In this document: positions 8,301-63,179 of the stretch, piece by piece
Layout of the letters: the number at the start of each line of letters is the position of its first letter
How positions within the stretch are numbered: the first letter of the stretch is position 1
Source: Clytia hemisphaerica
Taxonomy: Eukaryota > Cnidaria > Hydrozoa > Leptothecata > Clytiidae
Direction of reading: 5' to 3'
DNA length: 64,000 bases
Assembly: GCA_902728285.1 (NCBI GenBank)
Contig: CACVBU010001366.1
Span: 536,971-600,970 of the forward strand
The notes under the pieces: generated by a model
What the model was told of the DNA's origin: nothing
The model's input: only the letters and a program-made list of their open reading frames with translations
Database searches by the model: none
Program-made: the position numbers and the translations under genes

Positions 8301-11300
8301 TCGCTGAACCATTTCAATTTTTGATTTCAATGTTTCATTTTGCGTCGGATCCTAAACTGTGGAAGTATACTCTAGAGTGGGTCTAATAAAGTTGTGTTTC
8401 TGAATCACTTTTCATCAAGTTTCTTTGCAAAAAGAATCTTGTGTTATTTGCTTTAGCACATATGTTAGAAATGTGAGTATTCCATTTTAAATCCTTTTGC
8501 ATACTTACACCAAGATATTTCGCCTTTTTTACCATCTCAAGCTGTTGTCCGTGTACCTGGTATTCTGAATCAATTATATTTCGTTTATTTGTTATCCTTA
8601 AAATCTTACACTTCTCTGGGTGAAACTCCATGCTCCACTTTTTCTCCCAATCAGCAAGTTTATCTAGGTCAGACTGTAGTTGCTCGCAATCTTTGATAGA
8701 TTGTATCTTTCGGTAAAGGTAGGAATCATCAGCAAATAAAGCCAGTTTTGAGTCTGTCTCAAGTGGCATGTCATTTATGTAGGCAAGAAAGAGGAGGGGA
8801 CCAAGAACGGTACCTTGGGGGACACCTGACATGACTGCTGTTTGTTTAGACAATTTTCCTCGAACAACAACACGTTGGGTTCGATCTTGAAGAAAGTCTG
8901 TTATCCAATGTAATATGTCACCATTTATACCATAATGGTGGTGGTTATACCAAAACGATGGAGCGTTTGACGTCACACGTGTGACAAGTTACACGCTCAT
9001 TATTTGTTAATCCCATTGGGCGATAGGTGGTTAGGCGTTGGGCGTTCTCTAATTCTCAAATCGGCATCCGGTCATTTTGAATGAAAAAAAGTTATCGTGA
9101 TATGTTATGACAGAAAGTATGATTGATAAATTTGTTGTCAAAAAGATTTAACAGTAAGTGAAAATACAGGCCAGATATCAATCCCATGTTTCGACCAATC
9201 GTCCCAAGCTAGAGCAGTTGACGGTATAAAGCCAACAGCGTATCTTGAGAAGAAACATTATACTCATTAAAACAATAAAAGATCAAACTTCATAATTCAA
9301 AAAGAAACACTTACAAACATTAAAAAGGAAACTGATGTCTTTTCTTTGTATTTTTCAAGGAAACTGAAGTCTTTTCTTCATATCTTCCAAGGAAAATGAT
9401 GTCTTTTCTTTGTATTTCCAAGGAAACTGAAGTCTTTTCTTTTTCTTTGTATTTTCCAAGGAAACTCATGTCCATTCTTTGTATTTTCAAAGGGAACTGA
9501 AATTCTTTCCTTTGTATATTCCAAGGAAACTGAAATCCTTTCCTTTTTATTTTCCAAGGAAACTGATGTCTTTTCTTTGTATTTTCAAAGGAAAATGAAG
9601 TCCATTCTTCGTATTTTCAAAGGAAAATTAAGTCCATTCTTCGTATTTTCAAAGGAAAATGAAGTCCATTCTTCGTATTTTCAAAGGAAAATTAAGTCCA
9701 TTCTTCGCATTTTCAAAGGAAAATAAAGTCAAAATTTTTCTTTGTATTTTCAAAGAAAACTGAAGTCAAAATTTTTCTTTGCATTTTTTAAAAGGGAACT
9801 GAAATTTTTTCCTTTGTATTTTCCAAGGAAACTGAAATCCTTTTCTTACTTTGTAATTTCAAAGGAAAATGAAGTCCATTCTTCGTATTTTCAAAGGAAA
9901 ATGAAGTCCATTCTTTGTATTTTCAAAGGAAAATGAAGTCCATTCTTCATATTTTCAAAGGAAAATGAAGTCCATTCTTCATATTTTCAAAGGAAAATGA
10001 AGTTCATTCTTCATATTTTCAAAGGAAAATGAAGTTCATTCTTGGATTTTCCAAATTAAAAAAGGGTATTTTTGCGCAAAAATATGATAACATGGATCTA
10101 AAAATGCCTTTGACAGATTTTTTTTTGACCTGCTCAGTAAATTTAATCATCATTTTTCAAGTTAAGGCTTAAAGCAAATGCTTTTTAATTTTTCATTCCA
10201 ATTAAAGCTGTTCCAAAAACAGCGTGCTGATATTTTGGCCACATGACTAGGTAAACCCAACTTAAATTTGTTTTCTCAATATTTCAAAACCCCTGTCATG
10301 TGATGTGTAAAAAATGAGGTATTGCTTTTTGTGATATCCTTTAAAAATCCCTTATTACAGCTTACCTTATTACATGAAAATAAATATGCAAGTATTCATC
10401 GGCCTTGAAATTAACACGCAAAAAATTAACACAAATTTTATTTGCTTTTTTAAGGACACCACGGCTGGTTTTAATTCAGGGGGTTTTTATTAACACGAAA
10501 TTTTTCAATTCGTGTTAATAAAATGACTAGTAATATTCGTGTAATAAGGTAACATGCTTTGACACTTTTTGCTTGAATCTACTAAGGTTTTGTTAAAAAT
10601 GTGGCACAAAAGGGTAGTGTTTTATCCTTTTAAAAATGAACAGTTATTGATTTATTTCAAGGTAGCATAGTAATGTTTTCATTTTTCTTCTAAGCTCAAC
10701 TTGGGTGCAATTTTTCAATTATTCACGTTCAAATCAGCTCTTCCTTGAACTTTAAATTCATAACCTTTCTTACCTTTGTTTATTTCATTATGTTTTTGAA
10801 TTTTTAGACCTGTTGAAAACCATCTTGGCTCTGAACCAGAATGTGCACTGTGGAGGCGTTACAGTGAGTTTGAACTACTCAGAAATTTCCTTATGGCAAA
10901 CTACCCTTATGTAAGTCACATTTTTATTACTTTATTGTATAATTTCTAGGAGAAGTGTCAAGACTTAAAACTTTGATTGATTATAACCTTGCAATACAGG
11001 TATACTTAGATATTGTGTTTGATATTATAGTCACAGGCATCTTATATAAAAACACTAGATAGAGCTACTCCGTCACTAGCTGAAGCAAAAAAATCTGCTA
11101 TCTTGAACTAAGTGACGTCACAATTTGGCTTTGTGTGATCCTTGAAATTTTGAAGTCATTGCAGTGTCAAAAAACTTCAATAAAACCAAGAATTCAACTG
11201 TGACCTACTTTGACCTACTAATGGCAAAGATGACAGATTATATTGCTCCACCTGTCGTTGCTTGGGAAATATACAAAGTAGCTACAAAATAGGAGTGTTT

Positions 11301-22426: not shown

Positions 22427-25400
22427 ATGACTGGAGTAACGAGCGAACAAGACCAAGATGATCCACATCAGCAGATTTATCGTATCGTCAAAGGTACCAT
22501 GATGTTGAAGGCTGGAAGAATGGTAGGTTGTCCGCGGTCGCAGTGTTTTACAGCCTTGAACTTCGTTGAAAAAGTCACACCTGCTTTCAACGTGATACAC
22601 TTTTTATAAGAACATGTTTAGAACATTGTAAGGCTTTGCAGACTTTAGGACACCCGATTTCTTAGAAAAACGGACAAAATACCCACAAAATGGTGATAAT
22701 AAAAACATTATTGGGCTTAAAACTTAAAAAATTAAGAATATCCGAAGGTTTCAAAAATTTTGTTCAAAAAACGTGCATTTTTAAGTCATAAAGTTCTTAT
22801 TACCGTTCTCTTCTTTGTTTAGGGAAGACCTCATTTTCGTCAATTCCGTGTTTCAAAAGGTACGTGTTTTCATCATATTATCAAAGTTATTTGTACTAAC
22901 TTCAATTCTTTTAATTGCTTTAGCTTGAAAAATATCAATATTTGATCGGACATGAAGCTATTTGGGTCGGACAATGTCCGATGTCCGACCGTTATTTCGA
23001 GCCCTGGGGAAATACATTACAAATGCTTTTAAATAGCTTTTGATTTGATAAACCTTCACTTTTCTATAGTGTTAAAAGTAAGCCTGTAAGCATTAAGTCT
23101 TGTTTTTTTTCCTCATGATTTGACTTTCACTTTCAGATTTGAAGTACCTCCAGTGGGATTCACCAAACAAAGAAAAGATTGAAACTCGCAGTATGTTCAC
23201 ATCATAATCTACATCAACTTTCCCAGTGTTAAAAGTTTTTCTGTTTTTTCATTTCCGTGTCAGTGAAGTATATAAAGTGGCTATTGCGACTGAAAATTCT
23301 GCATAATTCACCAAAACTTCAAGAATACTAATGATAATTTGCTGTATAAAATTCCTTTTTTAACTACTGAAATACAACATTCTTTTTGGAGACTTATTTA
23401 TAATAATGAGTGAAAAGAGCGGGCCCGGTTATTTGAAATGTGAAGCAACCTTTTGAAACAATGTGTAATCTTTTTGCATTACTTTTTTTTTACAGTTGAC
23501 ATCTCAGAGATCAAAGAAATCATTAAAGGGCAAAAGACCAAAGTGTTTGAAGGAAACCCCATTCCAGAGTATGAGGTTGGTATGCTTTTCTTCTTTTGAT
23601 TTAAATTAAAGACAATCAAACTCAAGAAAGTTCGCCCGTCTATAGGAGTCTTTTGGGTTTAGTTCACACTAGGAAATATTGAAAATTTGGCTAAAATTTC
23701 GGTTCTACTTGGGAAATTGACTTAGTTTTTATCTTGAAATTAATTGAAAAAAATCCCAGTGGATTTTTTGACCTAGGAGCAATAGAATTTCTACCCTCAT
23801 TAGGATTTCGTTAAAAGATTTTCATTTCTACTGTTGGATGAAGTTCCACCGGAGCTGTGAGAAAGGGTTTTTGTCCGACACCGTACCGACCATAAGCATG
23901 ATTTTCGATGACTTTAATTGAATCTCATTTTTATTTCAGGCAATTTCATTTTCGATCATGTATTCATTTGGCAACCAAGAAAGAAGTCTTGATATTGTTT
24001 GTAAAGATCGTGCAGAATATGACGTTTGGACTGCTGGACTCGAGGTCGGTTCTCTATTGAATTAAGATCCGTAAAGGCCGGTCTCCACTTGTGCGCGCTG
24101 AGATCGCACTTTTTCGAGCAAAGCTACCACGCTATTGGTCAAAAGAAAAATGAAGCAATTCCATTGGCGCGATCTGACGTAACGGTTGTAAACTTTTTTT
24201 TTAAGCAAAAAGGAATGAAGCCAAAAAGTGCGATTGTAGCGCACGCAAGTGGAGACCGGCCTTCACACTGATTGACAGGCATATACAACTCACAAATTGA
24301 TTTTCCACATTTAAATGAAAAGTAAAATCTTTGAATGGATAATTTTAATGAGCTTTTTTACATCCGTCTCATTTTACAGGCTTTACGAAATGGCTTTAAC
24401 GACCTTGATGCTGTTTCTTCCAAGTTGTCAGATATTGAAGATGGTTCAAGCAAACTTTCGGTAAAGACTCTGCTATGCCTTCTCTCAACTAAGTCACAAC
24501 AATACACCTAATAGCAAGGATACAGTCAACTCTATCTAAATCGAACCTCCGTTATTCGAATTTTTCTGCAATTTGAACTAAAATATTGTTTCCCTCTCAG
24601 GCTGGAAAGTGGTTAAAAATCTTCTTCGAATTAGAGAAAGATTTGAATTACAGAGAGAAATTCGAAGATGGTTTTTGGTCTCTTGAAGACTTTTTTAGAG
24701 AGTCAACTATTTTCAAGTGTCTTTCTATCGTTCAAGCTCTATAACAATATTTCATTTTGTATCAGTGGTACCCCACTTATGTATACTGAGTTGTTTCAGG
24801 CGAATGCTTTATTTGACTTAATCTTTTTTTCACATTTTCAGTTGGAATTTGGTATTATCAGTGATCGTGTCTCGGTGAAAGAAGGTAATCTATTTAAAGA
24901 TTAAGCAATTTCAACTATTTTTATTCGACGTTTTGTTCGAATCTTATGGACGTGATCGAAAAATATTCTAGTTAGAGGGCGCATGAGATAAAGACAATCT
25001 AGTTTAACGAAAAATAAATAAATAGGAACCTTGGTAATAGAACTAATTCACAAAATAAGGAAATGAAAAAGTTCGATGTCTCCGTAATCTCTTACTCTTA
25101 GGTTCCAAATAAACGGGGGTTTGGAAAGATTTCGAGATTTTAATAAACGGGGAGGGACCTAACTGACGGGGTGGGGTTGGAAATTGTATTTTTGAAAACC
25201 CAAAAATAAGGTAAATATAGGCTAAAATCAGGCTATTTAGAGCAAACCTTCTCTTTGACAGCTGAAAATATTCTTAAGAATTAATAACACCCCTAATAAT
25301 TTTTGAAAAATCAACAAGCGTGGGGCCCGTTTATTTGGAACCTAAGAGTACTTTGTTCAACCTTTCTTCAATATTCTTCTCTCCAGATGCTTGTGACATT

Positions 25401-28400
25401 TACACGTGGGGCGCCAGCACTAAAGGAACGCTCGGTCACGGTGAAGCGGAAGAAGAACTTGTACCAAGAGTTGTTGAAGCTCTCTTGGGAAGAGATATTC
25501 GAAAAATCGCTTGTGGTTTTGAACATACCCTTGCTGTGTCAGGTTTTAACTTTGATTTCTTTCAATTTCGGGCAAATTACCGGGTTGTTTTATTCCTAAC
25601 ATACCTTATCTGTATAGAATTGTCGGTAAAAACTGGTCAGAAATAAAAAAAAACTTGAAAACTTGAAAAGGCACTCTATAGGGACTTATTGTCGCGCGGG
25701 ATGAGGTTGTGCACGGCCCTCTCCTGGCGCGATAAGCGAATATTTATTTTTATGCCCCAGGCGTTTGTGATCTGACCCGCCGTTAGAAGACGGGGAGGAC
25801 TAGAATGTACAGTGGAATTCAGAGTGACAGTAGAACAAAGTAGACAAGAGTTTTTCGGCTCGTGCATATTTATTTTAATCCATCCAAATGATAGGTAAAA
25901 TTACTCACAATAAACAAACAAATTTAAATGTCAATATTTCACCTGCGTCCAGGCGTCGCCGCTCACTGCAGTTTATTGCGACTTGGGTTTTATTGTTAAC
26001 TCTGCGCGAGAACCCCATAACTCCGCAGTTCTCCCCGTTTGATTCACCACCTGTCTCACCCAGGCACTTCCCAACCTTACGGTCCAGTCTCTAAACGACT
26101 CTGCTTCAGCATTCTTTGTGGATGCGCATGGCAGTCAGACCGGGGTCAACGGGGTCCACTTGAGGAACCAGGCTAACCTAGGTCTGATGGCCACGCAATC
26201 CGTGATTCCTCAATACGTCTTGTCCGGACGAACGCTCGCTGAAGAATGTCTGAATTTCTATATCTGGTTGAGATATTTCTATCTCATGCATAATGCATAT
26301 TTACAAACATTCAACAAACAAAATTCTATTTATAAATCCCTCATGACAACAGCCGCGGGCCCAAAACGTTTGGACCCCAAACGACTACCCCTTACTAGTT
26401 CTAACTTTAAAATAACATCAAATTTTTATTTTGACAAAATCTCACAAAAAGGGTTAATATATTTCAATTCTACACAAATATTTATATATTTATTTCATTC
26501 GACAACACACCCATCTTTACACAGAGTATCCATTTCGTTAAATGATTTTTACTTTTGGTAGAAGACCCAAGCATCTGATCTCATTTGAGTTCAGGTTACA
26601 ATTTTTTTCACGGTGTCCGTCTCTGCCACAGGTCCAACAGGTCAAGCCACGCTCCCTGTTACATGGGATGATTTTACAAAACTTCTTTTTGTGTCCAGAT
26701 TCACCACATCTCCAACAAGTTAATAAAACATTCTTGTTTCTGCCATTTTGATACTTTAAAAGGTTTATTTCAATGTCATCTTCGTCGTCATTTGCTGACT
26801 TCGGCTTTCCATTCATCATCCGTTCTATGGCATTCAGTTTCTCCCATATCTTGGTGAGTTCCAAAGGCTTTTCTCGCTTCAGGGACTCTTTTAGCTTGAG
26901 GGCCTTCACTGCTTCGTTGTAGGTCTTAAATTGTTTAAGACAGACAAAGTCTTGCAAGTCAGGTCTTAATCCAGCCAATAAGAAATCGAGTTGTCGATTC
27001 TCTGGTACTTCCAGTTCAGTAAAGAGGAACTCTAATTCCTCAAGGTAAGTAAGTAAGGACGAATCTCCCTGCTTGATGCTATGAAGCTTGCGTCTTCTAA
27101 TAACTGTTTCCTCTGGGGCATCAAACATACTTTCAATTTCCTTAATTGCTAAGGCAAAAGAGGTCTTGTAGGTTCCATCCATCCGGTGGAAGAACATCTT
27201 TGGTCTTTTTTGTAATATGGATGGAAGAGCAGCCAGTTTTTCCTCTTCAGTCCATTTACCAAGTTTTGTAATCTCTTCAAATTCTTTTAAGAAGGTTTTG
27301 AATGACTTCGATCCGGTCCCATCAAAAGTAGGTAGATCTAAGTGAGTGATCTTCGGTCGGCTGAGTTTATTTAAAGACTCTACAAACGATGTCTCTGTTA
27401 GAAATGTCTGCTGCTGTATTGGCTTTCGGTCTTTTCGTATAAATGGTTCACAGTTACCTCCGATTGCTCCTGCTTGATATGGAGGGGATTCAGATTCTAA
27501 GTGTTCAACTCGAAATCTTAGCTGTTCAATCTCCTCACTGAGCTGTTTCCCATCGGATCGAATTCTGTCTCGTTCACTCTCCAATAGTTCTTGGTATTCG
27601 CATGGCGCACTCTTCCTTCTTTGGATATGTCGCTTGTCCACAAACGGTGGTGTAGTGCATCCATCGTAACAATTGCTACTAAACATGCTGTTCCAAATGT
27701 CCGATTGAACACTACAGTCACTATGGTAGTGTTTGGTGGTGTTAGAAAGGCTCGTTACTACAGGTTCGCAGTACTTGCAGTTGATTGATCCATTTACAAC
27801 CGCAGGCAAGCAAGGCAGAACTGTTAGTAATCACTATAAGGTATGATGGAAAGAAACGTGACCTTTTTCGATGAGCCTTTCAGCTTTCTCTCCTCATTGA
27901 CTTTCTTCTCTTTTTTTTCCGTTAAAATTTCTTGCATTCGGTATTTAGCATCATTACTTGCGTCAATGATAAATTATTCAAGAAGGTATATAAACGATTA
28001 TTGCATCTTCTTCCTTGAATTATTGATTACTTAAGGGTTCATCGCGAGAACCTTTCGGAGTTGGCTTGATATCAATAATTCAGTTCATTAATCCTCAGAG
28101 TGACAAATGTTTTCGATGTTTCATATGTTTGAAATGACTCAGCTGTTTAGTCTAAATTAACGACTCATTCTCAATAATAACCATTGAAGTTCATGGTAAA
28201 TGATAGAACGTAGATTTGAGTTTCTTTGAGTGAGTTTAATTTCAATAATTCATTAATCTTGGTTAGGTATTCTTGATGTTCTTGCGTGTTCGAGCTAAGA
28301 TGACTCAGATTTCGGTACCATTGAATGACTCACTTTTCAATTTAATCATTCAAGCTCTCAGATGAATGATCGAATCAACCACCCGTGTCCATTCAGTGCC

Positions 28401-31400: not shown

Positions 31401-34400
31401 AATATTCAAATTACTATTTACACATAAATCACATTGCTACTGAATCAGCTAAACGTTTTTTTTATAAAAACATCCAAAAGTTTTTGAAGGATTTGGATGT
31501 TCTTAACTTTTTGAGTTTTAAGCCTAAAATGTACTTATTTGACCATTTTCCTAAGAAATAGGGTGTTTTTGAGTCCACAAAGCCTTAAAATGTTCTTAAC
31601 TTGCTCTTATCATTTTGGTCAGCGAAGCTTTGTGTTCTTATATAGTTTATTCATAAAAAAACATCTATTCGCTTCATTTAATAATATCAAATTGATTTTT
31701 AATCGTTTTGGACAAATTTCTCATTGGTTTCAATGATACACTATTTACACTACATATAAAAACAAAAAACGGAACAAAATTTTTCATCTCCAATCTCATA
31801 AACCGCCTCAAAGAAACTCAGATTATGCAACATAAATTATGGTATCAACAATTGTAAGTCCCTAACCCGACAAAGTCATATCAATATCTCTCTGTAAAGC
31901 TATAATTTTCTTGTCCCCTTCTTCAAATTTATCGCTTTTTAATCACTATGTTGACTATCATGATCTTCTTGAATGTTCAAGCTTTTTAAAAAACGTTCAA
32001 TCTTCTCTGAGGTCGTTATCTCAGGTCCATTCAATTGTTCTAGAGAATCGTGTAAAGTTTGTCCTTCGCAGATACTGTTACATTTTGATGGTAAGTCATA
32101 TTCCACTAGTTGATCATCCTCATCATTAAAAGTCACGTGTTTACCCCGTCTCACACCTGGCATGGGTGTTAGCTGACGTTGTGTTAACATCTTTTTGACG
32201 TTCAGTGAAGGTAGAATCAAATTACTGTCACTGCGCCTGCGCCGACCATGGTATTGTCTGGGTGGTTCATTAATATCACTCTTAGCTCCATCATCGCTGT
32301 CTTCTTTATGCTCATCAACAACGAGAGGTTCGTCCATGTCATCTTTACGTCTTTGCATCAAATTCTTTGCATTCCGTTGTAAAGCCATCTTATGGAGCTC
32401 TTGTAAATGATCAGTAACCTTTCCGCTCAATAACAAATCCGTATCGCTAGCACGTCGGTGTTGTCGGCGTCGTGTCGGCATGCGACACATCCCGTTTGGA
32501 GGTGACGGTAAGAATGTCGTTGAGTCACTATCATTTTGACCCATGATGAGCCCGTCGCTTCCCCTCCGTCTGGTTTTACGGGACAACGTAGCGGGATGAC
32601 TATTCAACGAAGACGGGTGTTCTTCAATAACATCATTATTATTGTCGATCAGCAAATTGTCAGCACTTCCTCTACGTCGTGTTTTACGTTTGGAGTTTGC
32701 CCATTCCAAACCAGAAGTAATAGCTGAGGGAAGCTCTTTTATGGTTTCACTGATCTCGTATAGTCGTCCACTAGGGCTTGATCCTGAACTCCTTCGGACA
32801 TATAAACGCTCGTAAACTATCCCTTCAGCTTTTTCCATAGCTCTTAGTGTCTCTTCCATCAAGCTTGCTTCAAAATGAAATGTTTTCCTTTCATGAAATT
32901 TCACTTTTACATACCTCTTGTGTATACTATATAATTATGGAACGCCGACTCTATGCATGATGTAATGTCAATTTAAATGATAATTATCAACTATTATGGT
33001 CACTGCCTGAAAAATAAATTTGATCACCACTTTTTAATTTGTTGCCAAAAATAGAATACTGTTTTGGAGTTTCATATTGATCAGTTACTCTAATATATCG
33101 ACCCTTTTTCTTTGCCTTTATGAAGTTTGAATTTCTTAATTATGTTACGGTTAAATTTGTTTAAATTTGTTTAATGATTCATACAAGGGAAATTTGACAA
33201 ATTGATTAATTTTCTATCAGGCTTGTCTGTTATTTATGTTGATGTAGCTCGAGACAATCTCGAGAAAATAATTGTGCAGTTGACGCTCTCTGATCCGACA
33301 AAGTTTAATTAATTTCATGACCAAAAATAACTTCCCAATCGATAGGCTTCATTATTCGATACGCTCCATTATTCGATAATATTGAAAGTCACCGTCAACC
33401 AGAAACTTTCATAAACGACGCTCTACCATTTGATACACTCCCTTTTTCGATGAAAATCCAATTCTTCTTGAAAATCGAATTAGAGAACGTCCACTGTAAT
33501 GATCTTTTTTTTTCTGCCTATCTCTAACATTCTCCCCATGGCTTTGCCAGTGCGATGTTGGTTAGCAATTCTCGTATTTTCAGTGTACCAAAAAGGACTT
33601 TATCTATTATCATTTACCAAACGCGCCTAGTAGTTTTTTGATGGACCAAATAGCTGATAATACTGAGTTTATGTATCGGAGGATATCGAGGGCGACGGTA
33701 AGTGAAATCGATAAAAAACAAAGTCGATAGTTGATGTACGGCTCAATATCGCCTTTGCTCACCTAAACAAACGACGGTATTTTGGTGGAGCAAAGTGGAC
33801 GGTGATTTCGGAGACATGTCAACTTTGCTTTATACCGTCACAAACGTATCCCTTCTCGCATAGTCGAGCCAGTGTGCACCCGTGTAACCAACTTTCTTGA
33901 GCTATCTAAATATCAAAACCATTTTTTATTTTTAAGCATTGACAAAAGAAGGTCAAGTTTTTGCCTTCGGTGAGAACGGCTTTGGACAGCTTGGTTTGGG
34001 ACATCGTGATGAGTGTAAAACACCAACAAAGATCAAAGCCTTTGATGGGTTACGGATTACACAGATATCGGCTGGCATGGAACATGCTGGAGCTGTTACA
34101 GGTACTATTTTTTGTGGTTGGCTAGAAACTCGTCTGGAGAACTCTCGTAATATGCACCCCTGCTGTTTCACAGCTCTGGTGGAACTTCCTCTCGCAGTGG
34201 GGATGAAAGTTTCTATCGAAATCCCAATAGGGGTGGAAATTCTATTAAGTTCTCGGTGAAAAAATTAAGTGGGATGGTTTAGCTATTGCTATATTTTTCC
34301 ATTGAATTTTAAATGGGGATGAAAAGAAAGTTAATTTTCCAGTGGGGCTGAAGTGTAAAAGTGTCCCATTGTGTTTGACACAGGGTTGTTAGTTTACTAT

Positions 34401-41038: not shown

Positions 41039-44000
41039 TCAATCGAATTCAGGTGGTTGATACCTATGGTTAACTTGTGAGTTCTTAGCTGGTATTAAGG
41101 GTAACGCCCTTTTCTTGTGTGGAACATCTTTGATGAAATATTCTGAAGAGTCCACATAACGTGTGGTCCATTTCTCATCATCATATTCTTGTCCATCTGC
41201 GGTACTGGCTCCATCTTTCATGGGTGGCACGAAACGGCCGTGATAACGCCTATAAAGTTAAGAACAGTCCATTTCTTTATTGCTTTCTTAAGGAATTTAT
41301 GTTTTGAATTTTTTTCTCAATAATAAGAACAATACAGGTACACTAACGAACAAACACTACAAACATATACAGTTGACGCTCTCAAATTCGACGTTCTACT
41401 ATTCGATAGGCTCCCTTATTCGATGAAATTTAAAGTCCCCGTCAACAAGAAACTCTCATAAACGACAGTCCCTTATTCGACGAAAATCCAATTCCCCTTG
41501 AAGATCGAATTAGAGAGTGTCAACTGTATATAATCCCCACCGCTAGAAACTAGTGTTAATTCGCCATCAAGGTAGAGGTAGTAAAGAAAGAGCTTCAAGC
41601 TATCAGAAGTTCACATGTTTTCATCATTCTACTCAAGATATACTTTCATGTCATCATGCTTCATTATGTAGTAGCTTTAATGCCAAACCGTATCTTACCG
41701 ATTATATTAAAGGGGAGTCTCTATAACACGCACGAGGGACACAAATTTGTTCGAATTATGGAAATTTCTAGTTATGGAGTTGGGTTTATGAAGCATCGTG
41801 TTAACTAGAGGGACCAGGAAATTTATTCGATTTATAGAGGTTTGAGCTATGATGAATCCACGTAGTAATAAATAACTTTTTCAAATGTAAAACACTTACG
41901 TTCTATAGACTTTCCAGAAGTAGAACATGGTTCCAAAGAGTAGAATCAGCCCACCAATGCAACCAAGCAATGCAAATATCAACGTCTCTTGACTGAAATG
42001 TTTTTGTGGGTTCATTAATGCCAATATTTTAGGTGCTGTGGAAAGAATTATATGGAGTTAGTCTTTTGGTTGCCTGATTAAACCAGATTAAGTTCAATAA
42101 TAGTCAAGCAAATGTAAATAATTTTCCAAAGTATTTTGAGCACTCTGGTGACAAAAGCAGCTACTATGCTCGCTTATCCGCGAGCCGCACTGACGAGTCC
42201 TTGGAAGGACGAAACACGTGTCTGTGGACAGATATGATTTTTCCAAGCGCATGTTTTCAGTATCTCTAATTCGAATTGAAAAGGGTGATCGAAAAGCCTA
42301 TTCCAAGAGATTTTATCAATTATACCCACTTACCTCAGGGCAACCTCGTCCCCGTGTATTCTAGGCTTTATTTACTTTACTCATGGACACCAGAGATTAT
42401 ATATCATCTTGCATTATCGATAACCATCAAAAAGCCCAATAATAAACGGGAAGCGAGATTGATTTTTGCTTAAACCTACGGAATTTAGATAAAGGCAGTA
42501 ATAATCTACAAGTTGAAAGCACTTACTACACTTGGAGCATGTTGCAGCACAATCACTCCTTGCCTCAATATCGAAATTATGACAGAATCCATCCATTGTC
42601 TGTTTCAGTATTTGGCAACGTGGGTTAGTATCATGACAATCTAAAAAGAAGCAGGGACCCAATCACATTTCATTTCTTAAGAGAAGTTTACAGAAAAATA
42701 AGTCTTTACGTACACCCTTACTCAGTACACCAAAATGTTTAATATATTAGTTACAGAATGACTGTAGAGGCAAAGTATGTCACATTAATTAGTGAAATCA
42801 TTTAATACCGACATCAAAGAATGGGGAGATTGGGTTGTAGTGAACACTGAAATACTGTCGCATCTATTTAATTTTTTTCAATCACCGACACTATAGAAAT
42901 TGCTAGAATTTTTATCTTGGTATAGCAAGTTTGACACTAAAATACCGTCCGTTTTTTCTGCCTTAAGCTTAAATAAACACCGAATGAATAAAGGTTGAAT
43001 ACCGCCCCCTACTCCAAGGAAGCTCAGTAGCTGACACACAACGTTATTTCAACGTTTATGCAACCCTATAACATGAACCTGCTGCACCTTCAGCTCTCTA
43101 ACAAAAGAAGCAGTAATTTCACTTACACCAGTTTGATTGTTGTATCAAAGGTTTACATCTTTCTTCGTATTCATTATCGATCTCAGGGCAAATACAACGT
43201 TCATTGTCATCCTCAGGATTGTATCCACATTCTATTAATTGGACAGAACACAAGTATGAGATATCTAAAATCTGTCTTAATCAGCCATGGCATTTTGGCT
43301 ATTGCCGACGTAAAAGTGCTTACTGTACTATAGAACCCAGAATTTTTTGCCGACACAAATAAATCTGAATTAGAAAGGCTGCTTAATATACTCTGCAGCG
43401 GAGACAAAAAGGCTATCACTTTTGATAGAATTCGAATTAGATAACGGTTTTGTGCTAGTTGAAAAGATAATCCTGAGAGGAATATTATCAAAAAAGAAGA
43501 AATTCAAAAAATGAAGGAAAAAAATGAGCTTCTTGAAGAATAGTGCTATGATATTCACTTCTACATAAGAAACTTTTCAATCTCAGAACGTCATAAATTC
43601 GAAAGCTGTAACTAACAGTCAATAAATGACAGAAATACGAAAACTTTCCCAGCTGGCACACAACGTTGTTTCAACGTTTATCTAACATAAAATGGACGTT
43701 GTGAACGTAAGATAATCGTCGAGACAACGTTGTGTGCCAACTGGGTTACTAACCTTCTGCGTTTTTATCATTTGGGTCAGGTCTATGTTTCTTCATACAA
43801 CATCTTTGTTGTTTTTCAGTTTTCAAGATTTCTCCTTTGTATATACTATGAATCTCATCTTCTTTGAGTGTACTATTCCATAGAGCTACATGTGCAAGTT
43901 CAAAAATTCCCATTGAAGATTCACCCCTCATTAAGTTGTTCTCCTTTGCGAAACTTAATTCGTTATATAAATCCTTGTGGAACATTGTAAGTTTCGGTTG

Positions 44001-59091: not shown

Positions 59092-62000
59092 TGGACCTAC
59101 CCCGGTGGGGTAGAGGTCCTATAAATAAACGATGTTCGTTCGTTCGTCCGTTCGTCCGTCTGTTACCAGCTTTTCTCAGGATTGGCTCATTAGTCTTTTC
59201 TGATTTTTGGCATAATGATGCAAAATGGCAATGCCCAAAATGTGACGGAGCCCGATTTTGGAAAAAAAAAATTCCGAAAATACCGGAAATATGCCGGAGA
59301 AACTGGTTTTTTGGCATTTTCTCGAGATTTTATCATTAGTTTTTTCTGATTTTTTGCTCAAAGATGCGTACTAACAATGCCCAAAACATGGCTGAGTCCG
59401 ATTTTTGAGAAAAAAAATTTTCCGGCTTAAAATGCCGGAAATCGCCGTTTTTGCAGATTTTCATTGGACTTTTTCCTTATAATTGGTTGTTTTTTTATTC
59501 AAAAACATTATTAATAGCAATGCCCACCATCAAGCATGTTTTAATTTTCAATAAAATTGATTTTTGAAGCCGGAACTATTTAAAATTCGCCGGAACAACC
59601 TATTTTCACCGGAAAAACGGTATTTCTTGAATTTCTCGAGCTGTACTTAATATTTTTTTATGAAATTTTGCACACTGATGCAAAATGACAATACCTAAAA
59701 TGTGACAGAGCCCGATTTTTGAAAAACATTTTTTCCGGCCGAAAATGCCGGAAATATGCCGGAAAAACCGTTTTTTTGGCGTTTTCTCGAGATTTCATCA
59801 TTAGTTTTTTCTGATTTTTTGCACATAGATGCGTAATAGCAATGCCCAAAACATGGCCGAGTTCGATTTTTGAGAAAAATTCTTTTCTTGCCGAAAATGC
59901 CAGAAACATACTGGAAATCGCCGTTTTTGCAGATTTTCATTGGACTTTTTCCTATTATTTCTTTGTTTTTTCATGCAAAATCATTATTTATAACAATGCC
60001 AACCATCAAGTATGGTTCAATTGTCAATAAAACTGATTTTTGATGCCGGGACTTTCTAAAAATCGCCGGAACAGCCGAATATCGCCGGAAAAACGATTTT
60101 TCTTGAATTTTTCAAGCTGTACTTTATATTTTTTCATGAAATTTTGCAGACTGATGCAAAATGGCAATACCTAAAATGTGACGGAGCCTGATTTTTGAAG
60201 AAAAAAAATTTCGGCCAAAAATGCCGATAATATGCCGTCAAAACCTGTTTGTTGCCATTTTCTCGAGATTTCATTAATCGTTTTTCCCGATTTTTGCATA
60301 AAGATGTGTATCGGCAATGCCCTAAGTGTGGCCGATTCGGATTTTTGAGAATCATGTTTTTCCGGCTGAAAATGCCGGAAGTATGCCGGAAATCGCCGTT
60401 TTTGCAGATTTGAATTGGGCTTTTTCCATATATTTCTTTGTTTTTCCACTTAAAAAAAATTTTTGATAACAATGCCACCATCAAGCATGACTCAATTGTC
60501 AATAAAACTTTTGCAATTTTGCAACCGGAACTTTCTATTTCTTTTTTCCCTAAACCCTTCCCCCCCCCCCCATCAAAAATCAATGATGAAATTTAATGCA
60601 TTTTCGCTAACCGCTATATTTTCTTAATGATTGATATTTTCTTAATGATTGTTGGGTGTTCAAGCTGAGTGAATGGACGTGTGCGAAAGCACATAGAGGT
60701 CCGGCGTCTCTAAAAGCCTCTCAACTCAGAAGTCAACCCTCTCCCTCCCCGACGGTGTGCACTGGATAACGCAAATCGAGGGCCCTGACAACAGGGCGAG
60801 TGTTCAGCACCCTGTATAATATAAACTGTTCACTTGTTGGCTGGCTGGTATCCGGATCCATGGTACCAAACTTGATATCATATCGGTGAGATGGTGTCTC
60901 TGGAAAAACACTCTGATTGAACCTTGAGAAAGTCAATTTGATTCAACTACTCGTAAACCACTTGATGAAATGTATAAAGTTGTTCAAAGAAGGCCCCCAG
61001 TCCCGGTTAACATCAGGGGGTGCGAAAATCTGCCGGATGAAAATAAACTTATAAATTTAGCTACTTGGAACGTAAGGACACTCTACAATAGTGACGACGA
61101 TGATAATTTCAAACTGAAAGCCTTAACTGAAGAAATGAAGCGTCTTAAAATCGACATACTTGGAGTATCTGAAACCCACTGGACTAACAGCATTCGAAAT
61201 GAATGATTACGTTATCGTGCAGTCAGGCAGAAAGGACAATATCCACCGCCAAGGTGTTGCCATATTCATCACCAAAGAGCTCTCACAGCACATGTGTGGA
61301 TACGCCCTTGTCAATGAGCGAATCATGTCCATACAATTGAATACCAAAATAGGACCCCTGTTTCTTTTTCAAGTTTACACTCCCGACTCATCTTACAATG
61401 ATGATACCAAAGAGGATTTTTTCCAACTGTTGCAGCAGCAGATTAACGCATTACCACGTAACTCTAGATTTGTAGTGCTTGGCGATTTTAACGGAAAGGT
61501 TGGTCGACATACAGACGAACTTTGGACAGGAATCTGTGGTGTTTATGGGGTAGGTCAAATGAACGAAGGAGGAGAGAGGCTACTGAACTTCTGTGCAGCC
61601 AACAAATTGTCAATCATGAATACTATGTATGTATAAACAGAAACTTCAAAGATTGATAACGTGGGTCTCACCAGACGGGAAAACCAAAAATCAGATTGAT
61701 TACATCCTTGTACCGGCTGACCAAAAGTCCTGTATCAAAAGTTGTAGAGTATTCAATTCTGCTGATGTGAACTCAGATCATTCGCTATTAATGGCAAAAT
61801 ACAAACTACAGCTACCCCAAAGAAAGAGATTCAAAACTCCCCCAAAGAGATACGACACACCCAGACTAAAAACTGAGGAATACGCTAAAGAGTTCAAGAT
61901 TAAGATCGGTGGCTATTTCGAAACGTTAATAAATGAAATAAACAACAGCTCAGTCGAGGCATCATACAACAAATTTGTTGAAACCGTAAATAAAGCAACC

Positions 62001-63179
62001 AAGGAGGTTGTAGGCTTTCGAAAAAGAAAATCTGTCGATGGCCTATCGAAGGATACCATACAATTATGTGAAAAAAGGAGAAAACTACGGAAAGACATGC
62101 TATCGTCTCCTAACTGTGAAAATCGTCAACGAAACTGTAATTGAGGTGATCAAAAACATGTACGAGAAGACCCAATGTGCCGTCAACGTAGATGGTAAAT
62201 TAACCAGCTGGTTTGAAGTGACAGTAGGTGTTAGACAGGGGTGCTTGCTATCACCAACGCTGTTCAACCTATTCCTGGAGTTTGTGATGGATGAGCTCCA
62301 AGAACTACAAGAGGCAACAATCCTTAACAATGGCTTGTGTATTGATGTTCGCTACGCAGATGATACCACCTTGATAGCAGCTGTCTTTGAGAAACTTCAA
62401 CTCTCCACGAATCAACTACAGGACGCCTGTTTGAAATACGGCATGAAAATCAATACTACAAAATGCAAAGCCATCACAGCCAGCCCTCAGCAAGTTATAA
62501 TTGACAATAAAAATGTTGAGACTGTTCAAGACTTCATTTTCCTTGGATCAAATGTTCCTATACCTCCAAGGACGTCAAAAGACGAATTGCACTTGCAAAT
62601 ATTGCCTTTGGAAAACTAAAGCAGAAGATCTGGTTAAGGAGAGATGTCTCAAATACTCTTAAAATTCGACTGTACAATGCTCTCATTCTCCCAATCGCAA
62701 TATACGGCGCGGAAACCTGGTCTCTAACAAAGCTTGATGAAAACAAGCTCTCAGTATTCGAAAACAATTGTATTCGCTCCATACTGGGGATTAGACTCCA
62801 GGACCGGATATCACTCAAAAGGCTACGTAAGAGAGCAAAGCTCAAAATGCCGATTGTCTATATGATCAAAAAGAGACGCTTGTCTTGGTTTGGGCATGTA
62901 GCAAGACTGCCCGAGGAGAGTCTAGCTAAAATATGTTTGAAAGATGAGTTCCAAGGCACACGAAGGAGAGGTAGACCTGCAAAAAGATGGCAAGATAAAA
63001 TCAGGGAAGACACAGGTCTTCCATTAGCAACGGCCGAACGATACGCACGTGATAGAACCAGATGGCGAGAGAAAGTTCACAAGTGGGCGAAGCCTCAACC
63101 AGAGGTGTGCTGATAAGTCAAGTAAGTCAGATTGTTTTTCTCCTTGTTGCTATCTAAGTTTCATCATCAGGTAGGTCCA
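59092..63179 (+). mobile_element. Modular repeat element, copy 2, interrupted by a LINE
   Basis: Same ends as 50256-51379. It has three modules of about 475 bp (starting near 59210, 59680 and 60155), then a foreign block of about 2.5 kb (60640-63130) that is absent from copy 1, then the common right end. Confidence 0.7.
60661..63117 (+). pseudogene. Degraded APE-type LINE (endonuclease + reverse transcriptase)
   Basis: Plus-strand fragments in three frames. The apurinic-endonuclease part spans about 61040-61790 (ATWNVRTL, GVSETHW, VVLGDFNGKVG, NSDHSLL). Reverse transcriptase follows from about 62130 (VGVRQGCLLSPTLFN, VRYADDTTLIA), then a C-terminal region (YGAETWSLT, FGHVAR, RRGRPAKRWQDKIRED) to the stop near 63113. 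Frameshifts occur near 61195, 61630 and 62600. The fingers part of RT is missing between about 62090 and 62120, implying an internal deletion. The style of the C-terminus is RTE-like. The 3' end has no poly(A) but a short AAGTCAAGTAAGTCAG tail. The copy is inactive. Confidence 0.85.

Follow-up and report, generated by a model that had tools for sequence, protein, structure and literature searches.

The closest described systems to the element analysed here are the non-LTR retrozymes of metazoans, known from coral, mussel and axolotl (PMC7229834), and the Penelope-like elements (PLEs) and Terminons, which carry minimal type I hammerhead ribozymes (PMC7761336, PMC11167929). The main text of PMC7229834 proposes circular or tandem RNA templates for animal retrozymes and reports dimeric hammerhead action for the retrozymes of amphibians; the enzyme which copies animal retrozymes is left open there, with Penelope-like elements as a strong candidate. 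A dimeric mode has also been suggested for the ribozymes of PLEs, and the main text of PMC7761336 names hammerheads located in introns of amniotes. We found no description of the family presented below in literature listings and abstracts or in the main text of these three papers, and no literature which combines Penelope-like elements, Naiad and hammerheads.

The locus compared here with these systems lies in a stretch of 64,000 nucleotides from Clytia hemisphaerica, which as a whole is called the window. We regard it as highly probable that the hammerhead motif of this window corresponds to the 3' end of an insertion which is truncated at its 5' side and derives from a non-coding retrozyme of the metazoan type with a unit of about 205 nt and one type I hammerhead. 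This element is referred to as family A. The positions of all features are collected in Table 1.

The original prediction had claimed a hammerhead with a complete core, and indeed every conserved nucleotide is found in order between 42185 and 42227 of the plus strand. The topology is that of type I, as stems II and III are closed by loops and the two strands of stem I are terminal and open-ended. The predicted pairing of the stem I strands (5 bp, one of them G.U) and the minimal stem III, with 2 bp around ACGU, were likewise recovered. Because C17 of the cleavage triplet is nucleotide 42222, cleavage is predicted after this position, in agreement with the site proposed before.

A match to a hammerhead covariance model, which had been suggested as a check, was obtained with Rfam Hammerhead_1 (RF00163) at an E-value of 4.4e-5 for a searched stretch of 1 kb. 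The alignment covers model positions 1-45, and the motif has the core positions and the topology of RF00163. However, its 29.7 bits stay under the gathering score of 34 bits, which is a threshold set by curators and not a feature of the ribozyme, and for this reason a search of the whole window at the gathering cut-off listed nothing. A descriptor demanding the core, a stem II of at least 4 bp, a stem III of at least 2 bp, an NUH triplet and a stem I of at least 5 bp matched once in both strands of the window. The same descriptor matched in four of 1000 dinucleotide shuffles, all four matches being longer and looser than the real motif. These shuffle matches and the score under the gathering threshold are what speaks for a chance resemblance to a hammerhead, but the same core is carried by a multicopy family, and we have rejected this explanation as next to impossible. 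At the level of the sequence the motif is thus confirmed as a genuine hammerhead.

Table 1. Positions of the features; numbers without a locus name refer to the window.
Feature	Position	Strand	Basis or remark
5'-truncated family A retrozyme copy, 109 bp of the ~205-nt unit	42130..42238	+	start of homology and direct repeats agree
Left direct repeat TTTTCCAA, probable target-site duplication	42122..42129		repeat score 8
Right direct repeat TTTTCCAA	42239..42246		direct-repeat test
Side hairpin GCUCGC-UUAUCC-GCGAGC on the stem I 5' strand	42168..42185	+	folds; family counterpart CUCG/CGAG
Stem I 5' strand CCGCA	42185..42189	+	pairs with UGUGG, 5 bp including one G.U
Core CUGACGA (DNA CTGACGA)	42190..42196	+	core motif check and Rfam model
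Stem II GUCCU/AGGAC with loop UGGA	42197..42210 (42197-42201/42206-42210)	+	reading of sequence and fold
Core GAAA	42211..42214	+	reading of sequence and fold
Minimal stem III ACACGUGU, palindrome of 8 nt	42214..42221	+	2 bp as monomer, closes ACGU
C17 of the GUC site, predicted cleavage 3' of C17	42222..42222	+	reading of sequence
Stem I 3' strand UGUGG	42223..42227	+	pairs with CCGCA
Host-gene intron with the retrozyme copy in antisense	42036..42526	-	splice signals (GTAAGT..CAG) and frames
Head-to-tail array of near-identical 300-bp units with type I hammerheads	L033 4436-5585 (C226:202435-203584)		genome search
RT element, ORF start matching the second family	L036 4695-3600 (C612)	-	sequence matches

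The internal loop of stem I, which had been considered suitably placed for docking, fared less well. In the window copy the distal stem I helix UAUC/GAUA gives -8.9 kcal/mol, compared with -15.9 kcal/mol if the 5' hairpin 42168-42185 forms instead. This helix is mismatched in the window copy, whereas most other copies have GUCUAU/AUAGAU. When 42164-42240 is folded freely (-24.9), the cleavage site becomes buried in a hairpin on the 3' side. In the family as a whole stem I consists of the 5 proximal base pairs, a side hairpin CUCG-CUUACC-CGAG on the 5' strand, and the distal GUCUAU/AUAGAU helix; the CUCG/CGAG stem of the side hairpin is paired in 90.6% of cells. Among 34 copies two pairs are changed on both sides, compared with 1.5 expected. 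The share of paired cells is 92.9%, and the same 92.9% is reached in shuffled alignments; therefore the pairing of the family stems reflects descent and not covariation.

The search for further copies covered the animal's own genome (417 Mb, 951 contigs). Querying with 42130-42290 gave 41 matches including the window, the best 40 of 209 candidates having been scored: 39 other copies, extending from query positions 1-6 to 98-113 (42130-42135 to 42227-42242 of the window), and one short inverted piece. With the full-length copy L045 as query 42 matches resulted (best 40 of 301 candidates scored), 25 of which span the query from position 16 or before to position 210 or beyond, and 39 stop at query positions 210-221. 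Merging the searches, family A occupies at least 71 distinct places including the window, two of which are known from a 27-nt junction pattern alone; this number is a lower bound from a sample biased towards copies resembling the queries. The 34 copies compared first include four from the Rfam search, and one pair among them (L047/L050) belongs to a longer duplicated stretch. Two copies, L078 and L079, lack much of the 3' half of the ribozyme, with breaks at GGACG-GATAG and CTGATGA-TAGAT.

The copies of family A have a common 3' end, located about 11-14 nt downstream of the cleavage site (GGATAGATGTA or a close variant); GGATAGAT is found there exactly in 35 of 44 copies. Read-through into the TTACGCTCAG of a following unit occurs in none of 43 copies, although one (L046) shares its first letters; a further copy, L008, could not be placed. 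The 5' ends vary, homology stopping between about 50 and 167 nt upstream of the core, apart from the duplicate pair. Direct repeats with a score of 10 or more flank 13 of 32 copies compared with none of 313 controls whose right flank was foreign, the remaining 19 copies scoring below 10. The duplicate L050 and L008 had been dropped for this test, and L067-L079 are outside it. The longest repeat has 17 exact bases (L065), and by eye the repeats are AT-rich. Copies throughout the genome with flanking repeats, a further check named with the original prediction, could thus be found. In L060 (C851) and L063 (C617) inverted second pieces adjoin the family A copy. Inverted neighbouring pieces are an arrangement known from Penelope elements.

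In the window the homology to the other copies starts at 42130, directly abutting the left TTTTCCAA, and the right TTTTCCAA follows from 42239. Taken alone this repeat of 8 bp is not significant, since it has a score of 8 and the controls reach up to 9. The copy is monomeric and has a GC content of 49.5%. The extent first given for the feature, 42174..42236, does contain the ribozyme, but the feature is larger, as the start of the homology indicates. Judged by its sequence, the locus in the window represents an ordinary, truncated copy within a retrozyme family.

This copy is located in an intron of a gene on the minus strand. Reading the splice sites from the sequence, an exon of this gene ends at 42527, followed by the 491-nt intron (42526-42036) and by an exon encoding a transmembrane segment (TM) from 42035; laminin-G-like exons lie upstream of the intron. 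A cysteine-rich exon, presumably ShK-like, was not assigned to any family by Pfam, and a search with the host protein yielded none at E <= 0.001 among 24 candidates. The predicted intronic position in antisense orientation is borne out by these splice sites, and being antisense the ribozyme is missing from the pre-mRNA. Probably, the window copy is inert unless a transcript of the plus strand crosses it.

The intronic position raises the question of a domesticated ribozyme with a regulatory role for the host gene or for a transcript in antisense. The core of the window copy is intact, and its three differences from the family majority are at tolerant places (N7, loop II and the G.U pair of stem I). 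In total it deviates from the majority in 3 of the 43 columns of the ribozyme and in 7 of the 51 columns of the flank, four of the latter seven being inserted letters. However, an equally mild contrast between ribozyme and flank is seen in the other 33 copies (0.048 versus 0.068 per site), and 27 of the 34 copies, including that of the window, have the ribozyme core and the stems intact. Therefore the intactness of the window copy needs no local selection, and with the ribozyme absent from the pre-mRNA we consider domestication very improbable. Out of the suggestions made originally, a solo copy of a small retrozyme is supported by the dispersed element of about 205 nt, its fixed 3' end and variable 5' ends, the direct repeats and the junctions between units; domestication is not supported, as the contrast is common to other copies.

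The window also contains an ORF resembling retrotransposon gag, in which a zinc knuckle was weakly matched (26538-27830, minus strand), and reverse-transcriptase (RT) and endonuclease-like ORFs at 8383-8988 (minus) and 61139-63113 (plus), which we take to be LINE-like. ORFs with RCC1 repeats (25278-25646 and 33936-34259, plus strand) are probably exons of another host gene. A tandem repeat of 476 bp is present in 2.8 copies at 59216-60509. A tRNA scan and a pattern scan of viral contigs gave no hits.

The longest copies of family A (L045, L057 and L063) have units of 200-205 nt with a GC content of 45.4-48.5%. They begin with (G)ATGTATTACGCTCAG, and because many copies finish with GATGTA, this start joins the end of a unit. 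A pattern of this unit junction has five matches in the genome at up to three mismatches, and the reversed pattern used as control has none. One further copy, L077, is a single insertion with two hammerheads 201 nt apart and the direct repeat ATTGGTAG on both sides; a repeat like this arose in 10 of 20000 shuffles. It begins within one ribozyme, crosses the junction and ends past the second ribozyme, and thus represents a 1.25-mer. A cDNA longer than one unit requires a tandem or circular template. Tandem units, represented by this 1.25-mer and by the junction matches in the genome, are rare among the fetched copies. Since for 32 of 34 copies the surroundings, to a distance of about 1.5 kb, contain no second piece (E <= 1e-4), long arrays of the coral type are not seen in family A among the best 40 candidates scored per search. 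Folding three units as circles gave z-scores of -2.05, +0.56 and -0.83, which does not indicate a strongly self-paired circle.

Similarity to Penelope-like elements had been noted at the outset, and a terminal repeat (pLTR and tail) of such an element is one alternative: long coding insertions truncated at the 5' side would leave ends of the kind seen here. In the main text of PMC11167929 a PLE of Anolis is described with a hammerhead at the start of its ORF, an internal start of reverse transcription, and insertions ending at the RT start sites. Family A shares with it the ends just past the ribozyme, the AT-rich targets and, in L060 and L063, inverted neighbours. On the other hand, the unit of about 205 nt is spanned by the 25 of 42 L045 matches (best 40 of 301 candidates scored) and no match lists more than the query permits, no fetched copy has homology past about 167 nt upstream of the core with the exception of one duplicated pair, and the start of the unit is joined to its end in five junctions and in L077. 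A PLE would be expected to carry an ORF with an RT and usually a GIY-YIG endonuclease; 120 homologues of one RT type matched neither the window nor the surroundings of four copies, to a distance of about 5 kb. A Penelope-like origin was a fair lead, but no such RT lies next to the copies checked, and as a whole we judge the terminal-repeat explanation unlikely.

For a non-coding retrozyme, the following course would account for the copies. Tandem units of family A would be transcribed, and the hammerheads would cut the RNA into monomers of about 205 nt. Because stem III has only 2 bp and is palindromic, they might do so as dimers; the palindrome of 8 nt would suit two ribozymes acting together. 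A host ligase could then close the monomers into circles, a step which is inferred. An RT supplied in trans would prime on nicked AT-rich DNA, using an invariant internal site immediately 3' of stem I. From there it would copy through the ribozyme towards the 5' side of the template, mostly stopping early and sometimes exceeding one unit. The traits behind this scheme can be pointed out in the genomic copies, namely the fixed 3' end, the variable 5' ends, the direct repeats, the junction and 1.25-unit copies, and the intact core in the window. Family A copies thereby appear to record a mechanism in which the RT starts at one fixed point, the targets are AT-rich, direct repeats arise and some products exceed one unit. 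The interest of the family lies in this clear record of priming and template, and in a hint at the helper, rather than in the intronic location.

This hint comes from a second hammerhead family with units of 300 bp, which was also matched in the Rfam search of the genome. A unit of L033 used as query has at least 110 matches (best 40 of 695 candidates scored), many of them head to tail. By eye, and among the matches listed, 27 partial ones start at unit position 1 and stop at 106-113, and 12 of 18 loci stop at unit positions 106-108; like those of family A, most copies stop at a constant position beyond the ribozyme. The L033/L014 array has a direct repeat of 13 bp on both sides. By reading, the ribozyme has AUA as cleavage triplet, a palindromic stem III AUGCAU and the stem I GCAGUG/UGCUGC, and the circular fold of the unit has a z-score of -6.0.

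Positions 1-89 of this unit match the start of the RT element in L036 in sense (90% over about 90 nt), and positions 113-277 match the next stretch of its ORF in antisense (94% over 165 nt). In L036 both stretches are consecutive in one frame, which has one stop in the first 122 codons and a subsequent shift, and they continue into RT pieces. At its N-terminus an environmental protein, P0051, is related (21 of 26 residues) to the peptide encoded directly after the ribozyme; an RT of the same family follows. According to these matches the ribozyme of the second family and, inverted, a further piece of it are also present in an RT-coding element, a link carried by one genomic element and one environmental protein. 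Pfam assigned no family to the L033 ORF, but some of its 787 homologues carry PF00078; by its motifs we take the RT of L033 and L036 to be Penelope-like. RT fragments of the same type lie near second-family ribozymes, upstream in L013 and downstream in L028 and L033. Homology between the two families (A and B) upstream of the ribozyme was rejected, as 216 of 300 shuffles matched or beat the global alignment, and a local match of 27 nt (E 0.022) is not believed either.

As the second family is tied by sequence to an RT-coding element, the question of the helper becomes testable. Tentatively, and with somewhat more doubt than trust, the retrozymes of this genome might be offshoots of their RT helpers, the template start of a helper having been captured to form a minimal circle that cuts itself; the element of the window might be another product of this kind.

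Comparing family A with the described systems, the window copy is intronic like the amniote hammerheads named in PMC7761336, but it is antisense, multicopy and has been compared within a single genome only. With the PLEs and Terminons, as far as the main texts of PMC7761336 and PMC11167929 describe them, family A has in common the minimal stem III, the fixed 3' end past the ribozyme, AT-rich targets and some inverted neighbours. It differs from them by a unit of only about 205 nt and by having no RT next to the copies checked; the ribozyme at the start of an ORF, as in the Anolis PLE of PMC11167929, has a counterpart in the RT element of L036. The metazoan retrozymes are the closest match. According to the main text of PMC7229834 they have a type I hammerhead in a unit of about 200 nt, a GC content below 50%, target-site duplications above 4 bp in many copies, and dispersed copies with some tandem units and no noticed coding sequence, and the same is found for family A, whose unit with its type I hammerhead lies within the retrozyme range of 150-450 bp. 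Unlike these retrozymes, family A is mostly monomeric and truncated, has a palindromic stem III of 2 bp and bears a side hairpin in stem I. Its products of more than one unit fit the templates proposed in PMC7229834.
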